NCBI GenBank assembly: GCA_007693585.1 | Contig: REDH01000084.1 | Span: forward strand, 1 to 36,516 | Length of the DNA: 36,516 nt | Direction of reading: 5' to 3' | Source of the DNA: Deltaproteobacteria bacterium | Lineage (GTDB): Bacteria > Myxococcota_A > Bradymonadia > REDH01 | Part shown: positions 15,219 through 30,955 of the stretch, piece by piece | Numbering within the stretch: position 1 is the stretch's first letter | How the letters are laid out: each line of letters begins with the position of its first letter | Program-made: the position numbers and the translations under genes | The notes under the pieces: model-generated | Told to the model about the DNA's origin: nothing | Databases searched by the model: none | The model's input: the letters and a program-made list of their open reading frames with translations, nothing else

Positions 15219-15893
15219 TCAGTGGAACGTGGCGGAGAATCGCAGGCCGAAGGATGGCCCGGACAGGATGGTGTCGTCCTCGTCGGGCACGCGGTGCCAG
15301 CCGACCGCACCGGCGATGCCAAGGCTCCAGCGCGGACCGACGAACCACTCCTTGCCCAGTGCCAGATCGAGCGCGAACCCCGGGTCGCTCTCGAAGGTGC
15401 TTCCCGGGACCTCCAGGCTGAGGAGCGCGAGTCCGATCGAGGGGGACAGGTAGAGCGTCGGGTCACCGAGCCAGAAGGTTCCACCGAGTCCGATGCTGGT
15501 CAGGCTGAGGGTCGCATCATCGGCCGTGACGCTCTCGCCGGCGAGCGATACGCGCGGACTCGGCACGGCCCACCCGAACAGGTTGGCGTGGAGGGCAGCG
15601 TTGCGCCCGACCACGGCCCCGATGGCGAAGTTGTAGTCGAAGCCGACACCGCGGAGATCGAAGTCGACATCGTTCGCGCCGGTCGTCGCGTACCCGAGAC
15701 CGCCGGAGAGCCGGAGGAGGAAACCCGGCTCGCGCGCCGTGCCCTGTTGACCCTGGGTCGGGGTCGCGCTGAAGGCGGGGGTCTGCCGCTCCTGCGTCGG
15801 GCGGTTGTCGAAGTAGCCGGCGTGGGCGCTGCTCACGGGCAGGGCGGCGGCGATGCCCGCCGTGACGAGGGCGATGAGGAGGGATCGGTTCAT
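15219..15893 (-). CDS. Outer-membrane beta-barrel protein
   Basis: A 224-residue secreted protein. Signal peptide MNRSLLIALVTAGIAAALP...SSAHA, with likely cleavage after Ala25, then a Gln/Thr/Pro-rich stretch and alternating hydrophobic strands rich in Gly and aromatics (FLLRLSGGLGYA, FDYNFAIGAVVG, LYLSPSIGLALLSL, WSLGIAGAVGW). It ends FGLRFSATFH, close to the aromatic C-terminal strand typical of barrels. Length suits an 8-strand OmpA/OmpW-like barrel. The start is supported by AAGGAG upstream of ATG 15893. It sits 73 bp downstream of the lipoprotein gene on the same strand and may be co-transcribed. Function unknown; likely structural or lipid/small-molecule binding. Confidence 0.72.
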   Translation of the reverse strand: MNRSLLIALVTAGIAAALPVSSAHAGYFDNRPTQERQTPAFSATPTQGQQGTAREPGFLLRLSGGLGYATTGANDVDFDLRGVGFDYNFAIGAVVGRNAALHANLFGWAVPSPRVSLAGESVTADDATLSLTSIGLGGTFWLGDPTLYLSPSIGLALLSLEVPGSTFESDPGFALDLALGKEWFVGPRWSLGIAGAVGWHRVPDEDDTILSGPSFGLRFSATFH

Positions 15894-15966: not shown

Positions 15967-17517
15967 TCAGATCTTGTCGGGCACGATGCAGCGGGCGAGG
16001 TCGAACAGCATGAAGACAAGCGCCCGCTCCTGCGGGGTCAGCCCCGAGGAGGTACAGCCCGTCGGGAAGGGACGGTTCGGCGACGAGTTGTCGCCGGCGG
16101 AGACGTGGATGTCGCTGAACACCACGCGGCCGCACTGATCGGCCGGATCGTCGAACACCGGGGTGTTGAAGCTGAAGTACTGGGTGAGGGTGCTTGGGCA
16201 TCCGCCGCCGAAGCCGGGCAGCACGCCGATGCAGCGTGGGTTGATGGACACCCATTGGGTGGCCAGGTCGCTGTTGATCTCCCGGATCGAGCCGCGGGCC
16301 TCCTCGATCGGAAACTGTCCCGGCGTGTCTCCCGGGTTGCCCGTCAGCTCCATCCAGGCAGCGAGCTGCGTGCCCTTGTCGAAGGAGATGTCGATGATCC
16401 CGGTCTGGTTGTCGGAGATGCCGCTGGATGAGTTGCCCCAGTCGGCGACGGCCCGGAAGTCGTCGGTGCCTCCGCTGAGCCAGATGTAGTGCAGGTGCGA
16501 GAGGAACACGCGGCCGCCGGCATCGGAGAAGTCCTGAAGGGCCCTGCGCGCCCGGTCCGACTTGTCGTTGGCGTTGGTGTTGCACTCGCACGAGTGCACG
16601 ATGATGTCGTACGGGAGGAGGTTGTCCAGCTCGTCCCACCAGCTCATCGAGCTGGGGAAGCTCGGACCGCCGCTGAAGCTGTCGGTGCCGCCGCGGCCTG
16701 CGTAGAGGTGAACGCGCCCTTCCTCGGAGGGAACGGTGAACTCGCTGTCGTCGATGCCGATCTTGCGCAGGAGGCACTCGAGCGCGTCGCAGCCGCCCGT
16801 CGTGACCGCGAACTGCGGGATGTGCCCCTCGCTGGAATTGCGGGGAAGCCGGGTCATCTCGCGGGGGAGCTGGTTGATCTGGCAGGGATCCACCCGCGGG
16901 ATGGTGACCTCGCGTCGCCACTTGCCGACCTCGATCACGAGCGGGATGTTGTCTCCCTCCGGCACGCCACGGAGGATGAACTGACCGTTCAGGTTGGTCT
17001 CGGTCTCGACGATCGGGAAGCCGCTCAGCGGCTGGCCACAGGGCAGGCACGTGGCCCCGGTCGCGATGGGCACGAGCGGCCCCGAGGGCACGTAGACGCT
17101 CACGTCCGGCAGCGGGAGCTCCATGGAGGGAATGGTCACCACACCCGTCAGGGTGGTGACCGGCTCGCCGGGAGGGCAGCGGCCCGGAGGGGGCTGGGTC
17201 GGGGGGGCGTCCGTGGTGGACGAGGCGCCACCCGGCTCACCCGACGTGTCGCCGGGAGGGCCTCCCCCCGAACTCGAGACGTCGCCCGGCAGCGCGCTCG
17301 TGCCGTCGTGAACGTCCGAATCGCCTCCCCCGGGCTCGCCCCCGCTGCCCCCGCCGCCCCCGGGGCGCGCGGGGACGCACTGCCCGTTTCGCTCGACCTC
17401 GTTCGGGCCGCACGACAGCGGTCCGTCGTCGTCCGAACTGCAGGCGGGAAGGAGGAGGAGCAGGGCCGAAGCGGCGAGGGCCACCGGCAGCGCGGAACGG
17501 ACTGGCGATGCATTCAT
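15967..17517 (-). CDS. Lipoprotein with regulatory-like beta-sandwich and GATase-like domain (paralogue A)
   Basis: A 516-residue predicted lipoprotein: lipobox LLPAC (Cys26), a two-Cys knot (CGPNEVERNGQC), a Gly/Ser/Pro linker (about 50-110), a carboxypeptidase-regulatory-like beta-sandwich (about 122-215: LTGVVTIP...LPDVSVYVP...GQFILRGVPEGDNIPLVI) and a C-terminal domain. In the last, YDIIVHSCECN and GGRVFLSHLHYIWL resemble the strand/turn pattern of ThuA/class-I GATase-like folds, without the usual Cys-His-Glu triad being clear. Conserved with the neighbour: TTGGCDALECLLRKIGIDD, FDKG, DIHVSAGD and the C-terminus ALVFMLFDLARCIVPDKI. Function unknown. Own promoter candidate at 17600-17629. 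Confidence 0.72.
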   Translation of the reverse strand: MNASPVRSALPVALAASALLLLLPACSSDDDGPLSCGPNEVERNGQCVPARPGGGGGSGGEPGGGDSDVHDGTSALPGDVSSSGGGPPGDTSGEPGGASSTTDAPPTQPPPGRCPPGEPVTTLTGVVTIPSMELPLPDVSVYVPSGPLVPIATGATCLPCGQPLSGFPIVETETNLNGQFILRGVPEGDNIPLVIEVGKWRREVTIPRVDPCQINQLPREMTRLPRNSSEGHIPQFAVTTGGCDALECLLRKIGIDDSEFTVPSEEGRVHLYAGRGGTDSFSGGPSFPSSMSWWDELDNLLPYDIIVHSCECNTNANDKSDRARRALQDFSDAGGRVFLSHLHYIWLSGGTDDFRAVADWGNSSSGISDNQTGIIDISFDKGTQLAAWMELTGNPGDTPGQFPIEEARGSIREINSDLATQWVSINPRCIGVLPGFGGGCPSTLTQYFSFNTPVFDDPADQCGRVVFSDIHVSAGDNSSPNRPFPTGCTSSGLTPQERALVFMLFDLARCIVPDKI

Positions 17518-17599
17518 GGGTGCTCGTCGGTTGTGGGCGCAGGAAGCGAAGGCCGGCAAGGCGGCTATCCCCCCCCGCGCAGGTGCTCCGCGTGCGGGC

Positions 17600-17629
17600 A
17601 GGGTAGGGGAGAGGGCGATCCGGTGTCAA
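17600..17629 (-). promoter_or_regulatory. Sigma-70-like promoter for lipoprotein paralogue A
   Basis: On the minus strand TTGACA (17629-17624), an 18-base spacer and TACCCT (17605-17600) lie about 80 bases upstream of ATG 17517. The arrangement mirrors the promoter of the neighbouring paralogue (TTGACA, 18, TATCCT), which supports both. Confidence 0.5.
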
Positions 17630-17744
17630 TGCGCGCGCAGGCAGGAAGCGATCGCGCGGGCCACGCTCGGCTCGTCCCGAACCGCGTGCACGCAAGCCCA
17701 TGCAGGCCCCCGGGCCCGACGCCTCCCCTGCGGCCTGTCCGTGC

Positions 17745-19334
17745 TCAGATCTTGTCCGGCACGATGCAGCGGGCAAGGTCGAAGAGCATGAACACGAGGG
17801 CCGCTTCCTGGGCGGTCAGCTCGCTGGTGCGGCAGCCGTCCGGAAAGAACACCTCCGTGGAGCCGTCCCGGCTCCCGTCGGAGGAGCGATCTCCGCCCGA
17901 GACATGGATGTCGGAGTGGACGACGCGCCCGCACTGATCGTCGGGCTGGGCCCCGATCGGCGTGTTGAACGAGATGTACTGCGGCTGCTCCTCGACGGGC
18001 GGCGGACACGGGATGAAGGGAAGGTTCAGGCACTGGGGCGTGATCCACGCCCAGCGCGTCGCGATGTCCTCGTTCAGCGTCTGAACGGAGGCCCGAACGT
18101 CGCGGATCTCGAAGCGGCCGAAGGTATCGACGATCTCGTTCTCGAACATCCAGTCAGCCATCTGCTGCCCCTTGTCGAAGTCGCGATCGATGGTGCCCAT
18201 GGCCGGCGAACGGATGTTCTCGCCGAAGTTGTTCCAGGTGGCCACCGACTGGAAATCGTCCGGCCCGCCGCGCAACCAGTAGTAGTGGTAGTGAGACAGG
18301 AACATCCGCCCCCCGGCATTGGCGAAATTGCGCATGGCCGTGGTGGCCGACAGGGGCTTGCTCGACGTTCCCTCGTTGCACTCGCACGACATCACCACGA
18401 TGTCGTACGGCATGAGGTTGTTCTCGTTCGACCACCAGGAGGCCGCGGAGGTGAACGAGGCTCCCCCGTTCATCGAGGGGGCGTAGCGCCGCGTCCCGGC
18501 GTTGCCGGCGAACAGGTGCACCCGGCCCCCGCCCGCCTCCGGCGTGAACTCGCTGTCGTCGATGCCAATCTTGCGAAGCAGGCACTCCATCGCATCGCAT
18601 CCTCCCGTCGTCACCGCGAACTGCGGGATGTCCCCCTCCGACTGGTTGCGCGGAAGCCGCGTGAGATCCTGGGGAAGCGCGGTGACCGTGCAGGGCTCCA
18701 CACGCGGCACATTCACGATCCGGCGCCACTTGCCCACCTGGATGACCAGCGGAATGTTGTCCCCCTCCGGCACGTTGCGCAGGATGAAGCGACCCTGGTT
18801 GTCCGTCTCCGTCAGCACGATCGGGTTGCCCGTGATCTCCTCCCCGCACGGCACGCACTGCGCCCCCGGGGTGATCGGCAACGGATCCGAGGCCGGCACG
18901 TACACCGTCACGTCGGGCAGCGGGAGCGCGCCGGAAGGAATCGTCACCCGGCCCGTCAGCGTCGTCGCCGGCTGATCAGCCGGACAACGCCCCGGCTGCG
19001 GGTTGGGCGACGTCTCGGATGGGAGATCCCCCGACCACAACGGGTCCTCGGAACTCCGACCGCTCGTGGTGTCCTCCTCGACGCTCGGGGACTCCGACAC
19101 GTCGAGACCGGACGTCCCGTCCGCCACGTCACTCGCCTCCCCCGGGGGGCCCGGATCACCACCCGGATCACCCCCGAACGGCACGCACACCCCGCCCCGC
19201 TCCCGTTCACCGGGCGGGCAGTCCGCTCCGTCGTCGTCCGAACGGCACGAGGGAAGCAACAGCAACCCGGCCACGGTCACCACGAGAAGCGTCGACACGC
19301 GAGAACGACAGGGGCGAGGGGACGAGTGGCGCAT
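17745..19334 (-). CDS. Lipoprotein with regulatory-like beta-sandwich and GATase-like domain (paralogue B)
   Basis: A 529-residue paralogue of the downstream gene with the same order: signal with lipobox LLPSC (Cys30), a two-Cys knot (CPPGERERGGVC), an acidic Gly/Ser/Asp linker, a regulatory-like beta-sandwich (LTGRVTIPSGALPLPDVTVYVP onward is split here by positions about 128-230) and the C-terminal domain with YDIVVMSCECNEG, GGRMFLSHYHYYWL, FDKGQQMADWM, DIHVSGGD and the shared end DLARCIVPDKI. The linker and a loop near residue 470 (SSDGSRDGSTEVFF) differ most. Tandem duplication is the simplest origin. Cys-rich, secreted, surface or periplasmic. No characterised function is known to me. 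Confidence 0.72.
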   Translation of the reverse strand: MRHSSPRPCRSRVSTLLVVTVAGLLLLPSCRSDDDGADCPPGERERGGVCVPFGGDPGGDPGPPGEASDVADGTSGLDVSESPSVEEDTTSGRSSEDPLWSGDLPSETSPNPQPGRCPADQPATTLTGRVTIPSGALPLPDVTVYVPASDPLPITPGAQCVPCGEEITGNPIVLTETDNQGRFILRNVPEGDNIPLVIQVGKWRRIVNVPRVEPCTVTALPQDLTRLPRNQSEGDIPQFAVTTGGCDAMECLLRKIGIDDSEFTPEAGGGRVHLFAGNAGTRRYAPSMNGGASFTSAASWWSNENNLMPYDIVVMSCECNEGTSSKPLSATTAMRNFANAGGRMFLSHYHYYWLRGGPDDFQSVATWNNFGENIRSPAMGTIDRDFDKGQQMADWMFENEIVDTFGRFEIRDVRASVQTLNEDIATRWAWITPQCLNLPFIPCPPPVEEQPQYISFNTPIGAQPDDQCGRVVHSDIHVSGGDRSSDGSRDGSTEVFFPDGCRTSELTAQEAALVFMLFDLARCIVPDKI

Positions 19335-28936: not shown

Positions 28937-30955
28937 TCAGCTCCGGTTCGTCGGGATGAGGCTGCTCCCCAGCACCGACGGCACCGGTCGTGACACCCCC
29001 GCGTCAGGAAGGTTCTCTTCCCACCACGACAGGGCGTCCTCTTCCGTCCACGCTCCCACCCCTTCCAGTGCGCCGAGCAGTTCACGGAGCTCGGATGCAC
29101 TGGCGGGCCGATCCTCCGGATCCTTGCTCAGAAGTTGCATCACCAGGCGCTCGAGAGATGCGGGAATCACGAGGTTGCGTCCGCGCTCCGACGGCGGCCG
29201 GGGAGCCTCCGTGAGGTGGGCCATGCACGCCTGGACGGCCGATGAGCCCTTGAAGACACGATGGCCACAAAGCAGGAAATACGCCACGCAGCCCAGCGAG
29301 TAGAGGTCGCTGCGGGGATCGATCCGATCGCCGCGGATCGTCTCCGGAGCCATGTAGTGCGGTGTGCCGAGGATGGTCTCGGCGTTCGTCACCCGCATGT
29401 CCGGGGGCGCGTTCACCTCCCGCACGAGTCCGAAGTCCAGCACCTTCACGAAGTCGGCCACCCGCCCCATCCGGAGCACCATGATGTTCTCCGGCTTCAC
29501 GTCCCGGTGCAGGAGGCCGATGTCGTGCGCCTCCGCCAGCGAACCGCAGCACTGACGAAGGAGATGGATCACACGGCCGGGGAGGAGCGGGCCCTGCAGG
29601 GCCACCAGGTCGTGCAGCGTGATGCCGTCCAGCAGCTCCATCGCGTAGTAGACCTGGCCGTCCTCCGTTCGGCCGTAGTCGTGCACCCTCACGGTGTTCG
29701 GATGGCGGAGCATCGCCGTCACCTGCACCTCCCGCTCGAACCGGACCATCGACGAGGAGCCGGGATCCCCCTTCAGCACCTTCACCGCTGTCGGCCGCTG
29801 CAGAAGCGCGTGACGAGCACGATACACCGTACCCATACCCCCCGAACCGAGGGGGATCTCCAGCGTGTACTGGCCGAGCTGACGGGCCTCGTCGACCTGC
29901 TGCTGCAGCCCGCGCACCCGTGCCGTGGCGAGCACGCCGAGGGCGAACAGCAGCGTCAGGAGAAGGCCGAACAGCGCCACCGTGCCCGCCTCCCTCGGCA
30001 CGGCGGCGGGCGCCGTCGACTCCGCCACCAGCACCCAGTCCCGGCCTGCGAACGCCAGCGGTGCAGACGAGGAGAGCACCCGGGCGCCTTCCGATGGCCG
30101 GATGCCCCTGCCGTGGAGGGTGACCGCCGGCACGTCCGTGCGGTCCTCCAGCCGCAGGTGGGCGCTGTCCGAGAGCGGAACCGCCTCCAGGATGCGGTCG
30201 AGCAGCGCCTCGAGCCGCAGCACCGCGATCACGTACCCCCGCAACGAACCACCCTCCGGGCGCTCCCGCACCGCCAGGTAGAGCGCGATCGCATACTGGC
30301 CCGGCTCGTCCTCGATCAACCGGAAACGGCCGGACGCAAGCGGCGCGTCCCGAAGGGCGGCCTCCTCCAGTTGACCACGGCGGCCCGGCTCCGAAGCCAG
30401 ATCGAACCCGACCGCGTCAGGGCTCTCGGGCACGATGTAGGCCAGCGGGACATACCACGCCCGCTCCTGGGCAGGCAGCAGCGCGCCATCGGCCCCCGGC
30501 TCCCGGATGGTGAAGCCGTCCAGCCCCTCCTCCCGCATCGCCGACTCCACCGCCGAACGGTCCGCGTGAAGCACAAGGGGGGCCCACTCCAGCAGCGAGA
30601 CCGCCGGAATCCGCTCGATCGCCCAGCCCACGAACGTCCGGAACCCGGTGAAGGACAGCTCCGGTTGCGCGTTCACGTGGGCCCGCATGGCGTGGAGCAC
30701 GTCCTGGAAGTCGTCGAGCTGGCGCTCCACCACCCCAGCCGCCCCCTGCAGCTTCCGGTCGAACGCCCGCAGCTCGCTCCGCGTCACGTCGCGGGCCACC
30801 AGCGTCGACACGACGAAGGTGGACAGCACCCCGATCACCATGACACTCAGGGTCGCCGGGAGCGCCCACGGAACCCGCCCCACCCGGGTCAGCGACAGGG
30901 CGCGGCCCAGACGGGTCAGGTGGGTGGTCTGCGCTGTGGTCTCGCGGGTGTCCAA
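28937..30955 (-). CDS. Membrane Ser/Thr protein kinase with extracytoplasmic CHASE domain
   Basis: A 672-residue receptor kinase: TM1 about 31-53, CHASE sensor about 85-290 (FVGWAIERIPAVSLLEWAP is diagnostic), TM2 about 325-345, and a complete eukaryotic-type kinase 363-625. Catalytic landmarks are G-loop GSGGMGTVY (370-378), Lys392 in AVKVLK, HRDVKPEN (483-490, Asp485), DFG 507-509 and GTPHYMAPE (530-538). The C-terminal tail is Pro/Ser-rich. CHASE usually senses adenine-type cytokinins or short peptides in histidine kinases and cyclases, so CHASE on a Ser/Thr kinase is uncommon. The start appears to be TTG (30955), preceded by CGGGG; no ATG exists before TM1. The gene is divergent from the ArsC-like gene. 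Confidence 0.88.
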   Translation of the reverse strand: MDTRETTAQTTHLTRLGRALSLTRVGRVPWALPATLSVMVIGVLSTFVVSTLVARDVTRSELRAFDRKLQGAAGVVERQLDDFQDVLHAMRAHVNAQPELSFTGFRTFVGWAIERIPAVSLLEWAPLVLHADRSAVESAMREEGLDGFTIREPGADGALLPAQERAWYVPLAYIVPESPDAVGFDLASEPGRRGQLEEAALRDAPLASGRFRLIEDEPGQYAIALYLAVRERPEGGSLRGYVIAVLRLEALLDRILEAVPLSDSAHLRLEDRTDVPAVTLHGRGIRPSEGARVLSSSAPLAFAGRDWVLVAESTAPAAVPREAGTVALFGLLLTLLFALGVLATARVRGLQQQVDEARQLGQYTLEIPLGSGGMGTVYRARHALLQRPTAVKVLKGDPGSSSMVRFEREVQVTAMLRHPNTVRVHDYGRTEDGQVYYAMELLDGITLHDLVALQGPLLPGRVIHLLRQCCGSLAEAHDIGLLHRDVKPENIMVLRMGRVADFVKVLDFGLVREVNAPPDMRVTNAETILGTPHYMAPETIRGDRIDPRSDLYSLGCVAYFLLCGHRVFKGSSAVQACMAHLTEAPRPPSERGRNLVIPASLERLVMQLLSKDPEDRPASASELRELLGALEGVGAWTEEDALSWWEENLPDAGVSRPVPSVLGSSLIPTNRS

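Follow-up and report, generated by a model that had tools for sequence, protein, structure and literature searches.

Lipoprotein gene pair and the order of its parts

What do two adjacent lipoprotein genes without a family name encode, and do they form an envelope system with the predicted beta-barrel gene beside them? These questions arise from the window analysed here, a 36,516-nucleotide stretch of contig REDH01000084.1 from a Deltaproteobacteria bacterium, in which a sequence-only reading had picked out tandem paralogous lipoproteins of more than 500 residues. We found both open reading frames, which lie on the minus strand, to be genuine and complete: P0002, copy 1 and the pair's upstream gene, encodes 529 aa (17745..19334, (−) strand), and P0001, copy 2 and the downstream gene, encodes 516 aa (15967..17517, (−) strand). 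P0001 starts at an ATG, and an alternative, longer form beginning at a TTG at 17559 is unlikely. The two proteins are 59% identical, and a search of their own genome returned only these two copies. Each has a type II signal peptide with a lipobox, LPSC at residues 27–30 of P0002 (19245..19256, (−) strand) and LPAC at residues 23–26 of P0001 (17440..17451, (−) strand), and a lipobox was also present in 66 of the 73 relatives whose start is complete. Neither Pfam nor NCBIfam gave a significant match for either protein, and we found no literature on the family, in keeping with the earlier statement that no role or family name had been described.

A Cys knot had been proposed to follow the lipobox. 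What follows the lipidated Cys is a single short Cys pair (CPPGERERGGVC in P0002, 19185..19220, (−) strand), which allows at most one disulfide and supplies two of the at least six cysteines that a cystine knot contains; its C..G....G.C motif recurs in relatives. In both proteins the pair leads into an acidic, Gly/Ser/Pro-rich linker and then into about 400 well-conserved residues. The rest of the proposed order, in which lipobox and linker precede a beta-sandwich and a GATase/ThuA-like domain, was borne out by structure prediction and fold search (below). In P0002 the CarboxypepD_reg-like beta-sandwich spans approximately residues 122–225 (18660..18971, (−) strand) and holds Cys160/163 and Cys215, and the ThuA/GATase1-like alpha/beta domain spans approximately residues 237–523 (17766..18626, (−) strand) with predicted pocket residues D247, C317, H348, D475 and H477. 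The corresponding parts of P0001 are a sandwich at approximately residues 119–222, placed by alignment to P0002 (16852..17163, (−) strand), and an alpha/beta domain at approximately residues 234–510 (15988..16818, (−) strand) with predicted pocket residues D244, C310, H341, D469 and H471. The motifs CECN, FDKG and DIHVS occur in both copies, as had been reported.

The linkers had also been described as diverging while the folded domains stay near-identical in places. Some stretches are indeed strongly conserved, but the contrast between parts is modest, with identities of 51% for the N-terminal/linker part, 65% for the sandwich and 60% for the alpha/beta domain. Between P0001 and P0002, dN/dS (NG86) was approximately 0.40–0.46 in every part, consistent with the purifying selection that had been suggested. 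An extra Cys pair occurs only in the window copies, at approximately 419–430 of P0001 (PRC...GGC) and 426–444 of P0002 (PQC...IPC).

Fold of the conserved core

AlphaFold2 modelled residues 113–529 of P0002 with a pLDDT of 93.4 and a pTM of 0.92 from a 78-row alignment, and the C-terminal domain alone with a pLDDT of 92.6. Structure prediction and a fold search of this domain had been put forward as a check, and here Foldseek ranked the ThuA-like structure 4jqs first (E 1.3e-5, probability 1.00, TM 0.45/0.54), which identifies a ThuA-type alpha/beta fold. After 4jqs came the IFT52 N-domain, GH42 beta-galactosidases (matched in what we take to be their trimerisation domain), ThuA-like 1t0b and amidotransferases. 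The N-terminal part matched X-module, pilin and similar sandwiches, and model and fold search together identify a transthyretin/Cna-B-like beta-sandwich. The CarboxypepD_reg profile (PF13620) scored 15.9 bits on P0002 against a cut-off of 32.3; a Bradymonadia-type relative of the same architecture (L214) reached 44.8 bits, above this cut-off, and the profile matched 16 of 19 superfamily rows, at best with 9e-9. None of the members scanned scored above the Pfam cut-off for ThuA (PF06283), and the profile alignments with three ThuA-like proteins found in relatives were short and weak. A sequence-profile search of the PDB returned only a chance nanobody match, and a viral fold library gave weak matches only, mostly at the level of the sandwich. 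The architecture is, as modelled, a CarboxypepD_reg-like sandwich joined to a ThuA-like domain.

The resemblance to ThuA (4jqs/4pxy, 1t0b) is at the level of the fold only and the canonical nucleophile is missing, and so no match to a characterised enzyme family with a different, known role displaced the sequence-only reading. The family and ThuA share an alpha/beta GATase1-type fold, a GG(R/G)-hydrophobic strand before the elbow and a His in the last-strand motif, RVxxSxxH in the family versus RIFHTMLGH in 4e5v. Unlike ThuA, the family consists of predicted secreted lipoproteins with several putative disulfides, a sandwich in front and an apparently unpaired Cys ending strand 3. The N-terminal sandwich has its fold in common with CarboxypepD_reg and the related Cna-B/X-module sandwiches, but the window copies fall below the Pfam cut-off and carry a CxxC and a further Cys pair. 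Class I glutamine amidotransferases and the DJ-1/PfpI superfamily (3fij, 3d54 and 1oi4 among the matches) are likewise similar at the fold level, and differ in that the family's elbow residue is His or Asp and never Cys. In dimethylformamidase, a mononuclear Fe3+ is buried in a ThuA-like domain (PMC7686228). The large subunit of this enzyme (PF20254, DMFA2_C) resembles the family in the spacing of strand 3, GGR and YW, but its Fe ligands, Tyr/Tyr/Glu, differ from the family's pocket, the profile similarity is weak, and it is a described hydrolase and not a lipoprotein. The HPEY and NGFYW stretches of PF20254 loci are absent from the family. At one locus (L033, approximately 1133–2422), a gene immediately ahead of three long family members codes for a secreted protein of DMFA2_C type.

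Putative cysteine pairing and a predicted conserved pocket

We next consider the cysteines, numbered as in P0002 (construct numbers, given in brackets for pocket positions, are P0002 numbers minus 112). Among 132 superfamily sequences, C251 and C501 occurred together in 105 and were missing together in 27, without a discordant case, C246 and C319 were both present in 15 and both absent in 117, again with none discordant, and C468 and C523 were both present in 129, both absent in 1 and discordant in 2. From this co-occurrence we assign the putative disulfides C251–C501, C246–C319 and C468–C523. C246 and C319 also co-change in the 78-row tree, with 6 changes each and 5/5 independent pairs concordant. 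C160 and C163, in the sandwich, form a CxxC. C117 and C215 also tend to be lost jointly. C317, the first Cys of CECN, is found in 132/132 superfamily sequences and is kept in minimal relatives without the other cysteines of the domain; because the other cysteines pair off by co-occurrence, it appears to be the single invariant unpaired Cys. Two other roles for these residues were rejected. CECN is not catalytic as a unit, since its second Cys is the optional partner of C246 and only the first is invariant, and a pairing of C317 with C251 is disfavoured, since C317 persists in sequences from which both C251 and C501 are gone.

C317 sits at the end of strand 3, and D247, residue 348 and H477 lie where the other strands of the fold end at the canonical GATase active site. 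Across the 132 sequences, position 247 (135) is Asp in 130 and Glu in 2, position 348 (236) is His in 90 and Asp in 42 and nothing else, and position 477 (365) is His in 129 and Asn in 3. Position 348 covaries with 475 (236 with 363), the combinations being H/D in 82, D/T in 27 and D/S in 10. The nucleophilic Cys of class I GATases, which has a His/Glu partner, is expected at the elbow after strand 4, which is position 348, and as this position holds His or Asp and never Cys, the GATase nucleophile is absent. Strand topology suggests that D247, C317, H348 and H477 are close in space, and C317 probably sits with the other three at the rim of a metal- or ligand-binding pocket. All variants at the pocket positions are of residue types that can bind metal, which favours a metal centre, with both the metal and a substrate being putative. 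Dimethylformamidase provides a published precedent for a metal in a ThuA-like domain (PMC7686228).

The same conservation of His, Asp and Cys would also suit a thiol enzyme, or a core whose role is purely structural. In a secreted thiol enzyme, C317 at the end of strand 3 would have taken over as nucleophile from the elbow position, helped by H477 and H348/Asp. The invariance of C317, its lack of a co-occurring partner and its persistence in the minimal relatives would suit this role, but the family has no pathway context, we know of no GATase-fold enzyme with such an arrangement of the nucleophile, and a free thiol exposed to an oxidising compartment usually binds a metal or is protected, so that we consider a thiol enzyme improbable. 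Alternatively, the ThuA-like domain could be a catalytically dead scaffold in a structural adhesin or surface coat lipoprotein, its conserved residues merely holding the fold. The missing elbow Cys would agree with this, as would the IFT52 N-domain among the top fold matches, which is a protein-interaction domain, and the recurrent fusion of the core to long Cys-rich CG...DGCGGT..CG.C arrays together with gene amplification (below). Against it, the restriction of position 348 to His and Asp, together with an unpaired Cys that never varies and a His that almost never does, all at the active-site end of the sheet, exceeds what a fold needs, and we regard a dead scaffold as rather unlikely.

Our preferred reading, to which we give a probability of about 0.5, is that P0001 and P0002 are cell-surface or periplasmic lipoproteins with a divergent ThuA-like pocket that probably binds a metal or another ligand. 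Export and the final location, whether outer leaflet, surface or periplasm, are predicted from the sequences. Under this reading the lipidated proteins would be anchored at the outer membrane or surface, and the flexible linker would keep a disulfide-locked unit off the membrane. In this unit a CarboxypepD_reg-type sandwich, acting as a spacer or packing module, would be joined to a GATase1-fold domain that has lost the amidotransferase nucleophile and kept D247, C317, H348 (His/Asp across the superfamily) and H477. These four residues may line a ligand pocket with a metal or thiol/metal centre, in which a small substrate from outside the cell, for example a sugar or an amide, would be bound or perhaps converted. 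Tandem duplication would multiply the copies, and fusion to other Cys-rich extracellular repeats would diversify the surface. More tentatively, we propose that the pocket is a metal or thiol centre of a new D-C-(H/D)-H type on the ThuA/GATase fold, in an extracellular enzyme or metal-dependent binding module amplified by tandem duplication in myxobacteria. Should the pocket prove to be a metal centre, the ThuA fold would have been put to a new extracellular use. Sequence alone provides a testable pocket and disulfide map, which opens a way to the function of many 'hypothetical' myxobacterial surface lipoproteins.

Distribution and diversification of the family

Among 58 related genomes, the lipoprotein family was found in 10, with up to 11 matches in one genome; in the same search, the remaining five genomes from the family to which the window's genome belongs yielded none. 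In a contig scan of 84,980 species, a single-protein query gave no matches and an alignment query gave 134 family loci. The 79 loci listed of these 134 came from Myxococcota or 'Deltaproteobacteria', together with four from MAGs labelled Proteobacteria. The main profile matched 124 of 379 Myxococcota genomes, and a profile of distant relatives matched 194 of 379, with several copies in some. The family, taken with this distant branch, is thus present in 194 of the 379 sampled genomes and yet nameless in Pfam and NCBIfam. In a maximum-likelihood tree P0001 and P0002 are sisters (support 100/97), nested among MAGs of the sediment series CSSed. We also found twelve close arrays of neighbouring family genes, and therefore tandem duplication recurs in the family. 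Together, this is an unnamed family that is phylum-typical in Myxococcota and tandem-prone. A defence system and plasmid-borne spread were both rejected, as PADLOC gave no significant match for the window proteins and no plasmid matched.

Members occur as short forms of approximately 450–700 aa and long forms of 850–1660 aa, the latter carrying the same core amid Cys-rich CG...DGCGGT..CG.C repeats that have no Pfam match. The core is embedded in many copies of this undescribed repeat at seven loci (L033, L034, L038, L039, L043, L044 and L046). At L154, Kelch-like repeats and a lamin-tail-like stretch, both read from the sequence, are inserted within the ThuA-like domain. At L086, L093 and L096, a gene approximately 2 kb upstream of the core encodes a protein made of CC-rich knot-like repeats, which resemble the C-terminal tails that some members carry. 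In one related family (L213–L219), a single-copy minimal relative with a D-C-D-H pocket adjoins an acireductone dioxygenase gene and unknown genes in conserved order, which is probably plain synteny.

Neighbourhood and promoters

The sequence-only reading had joined the two lipoproteins to the downstream barrel gene as a candidate for a new envelope system. This gene, predicted to encode a beta-barrel of 224 aa (15219..15893, (−) strand), is co-directional and begins 74 bp downstream of P0001, as such a system would have it. However, the linkage is not conserved: a survey of the 79 listed family loci, of the kind that had been suggested as a check, revealed no conserved neighbour outside single genera. 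Of the 58 related genomes, 11 carry relatives of the barrel and 10 carry the lipoproteins, and the two distributions are nearly exclusive, overlapping only in the window's genome and in one genome with a marginal lipoprotein match. The barrel is found in none of the lipoprotein-rich genomes, and a second barrel copy lies elsewhere in the window's genome, on contig C3. A two-lipoprotein-plus-barrel system is therefore very improbable. Since no neighbour recurs, the barrel almost never co-occurs and the genes that surround the trio in the window have ordinary metabolic and regulatory roles, the lipoproteins seem to act as stand-alone units.

Each gene has its own promoter-like TTGACA box with an 18-bp spacer, as had been noted, TTGACA-N18-TATCCT upstream of P0002 (19390..19419, (−) strand) and TTGACA-N18-TACCCT upstream of P0001 (17600..17629, (−) strand). 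The pattern TTGACA-N17-19-TAYCCT has 3 sites in the 5 Mb genome versus 0 for a reversed control, and the third site is near what we take, from its sequence, to be a hisS/hisZ-like gene. No comparable box was found upstream of family genes in 66 relatives. Because the boxes are not conserved in these relatives, their match in P0001 and P0002 probably reflects shared descent, as vegetative promoters inherited in the duplication, and is not a family signature. A shared regulon was rejected on the same two grounds, the position of the third site and the relatives without the box. Elsewhere in the window, Pfam identifies a protein in which a CHASE sensor domain is linked with a Ser/Thr protein kinase domain (28937–30955, (−) strand); CHASE usually fronts histidine kinases or cyclases. 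An IS3-type transposase pair (HTH_Tnp_1 and rve) lies at 1205–2406 on the (+) strand.
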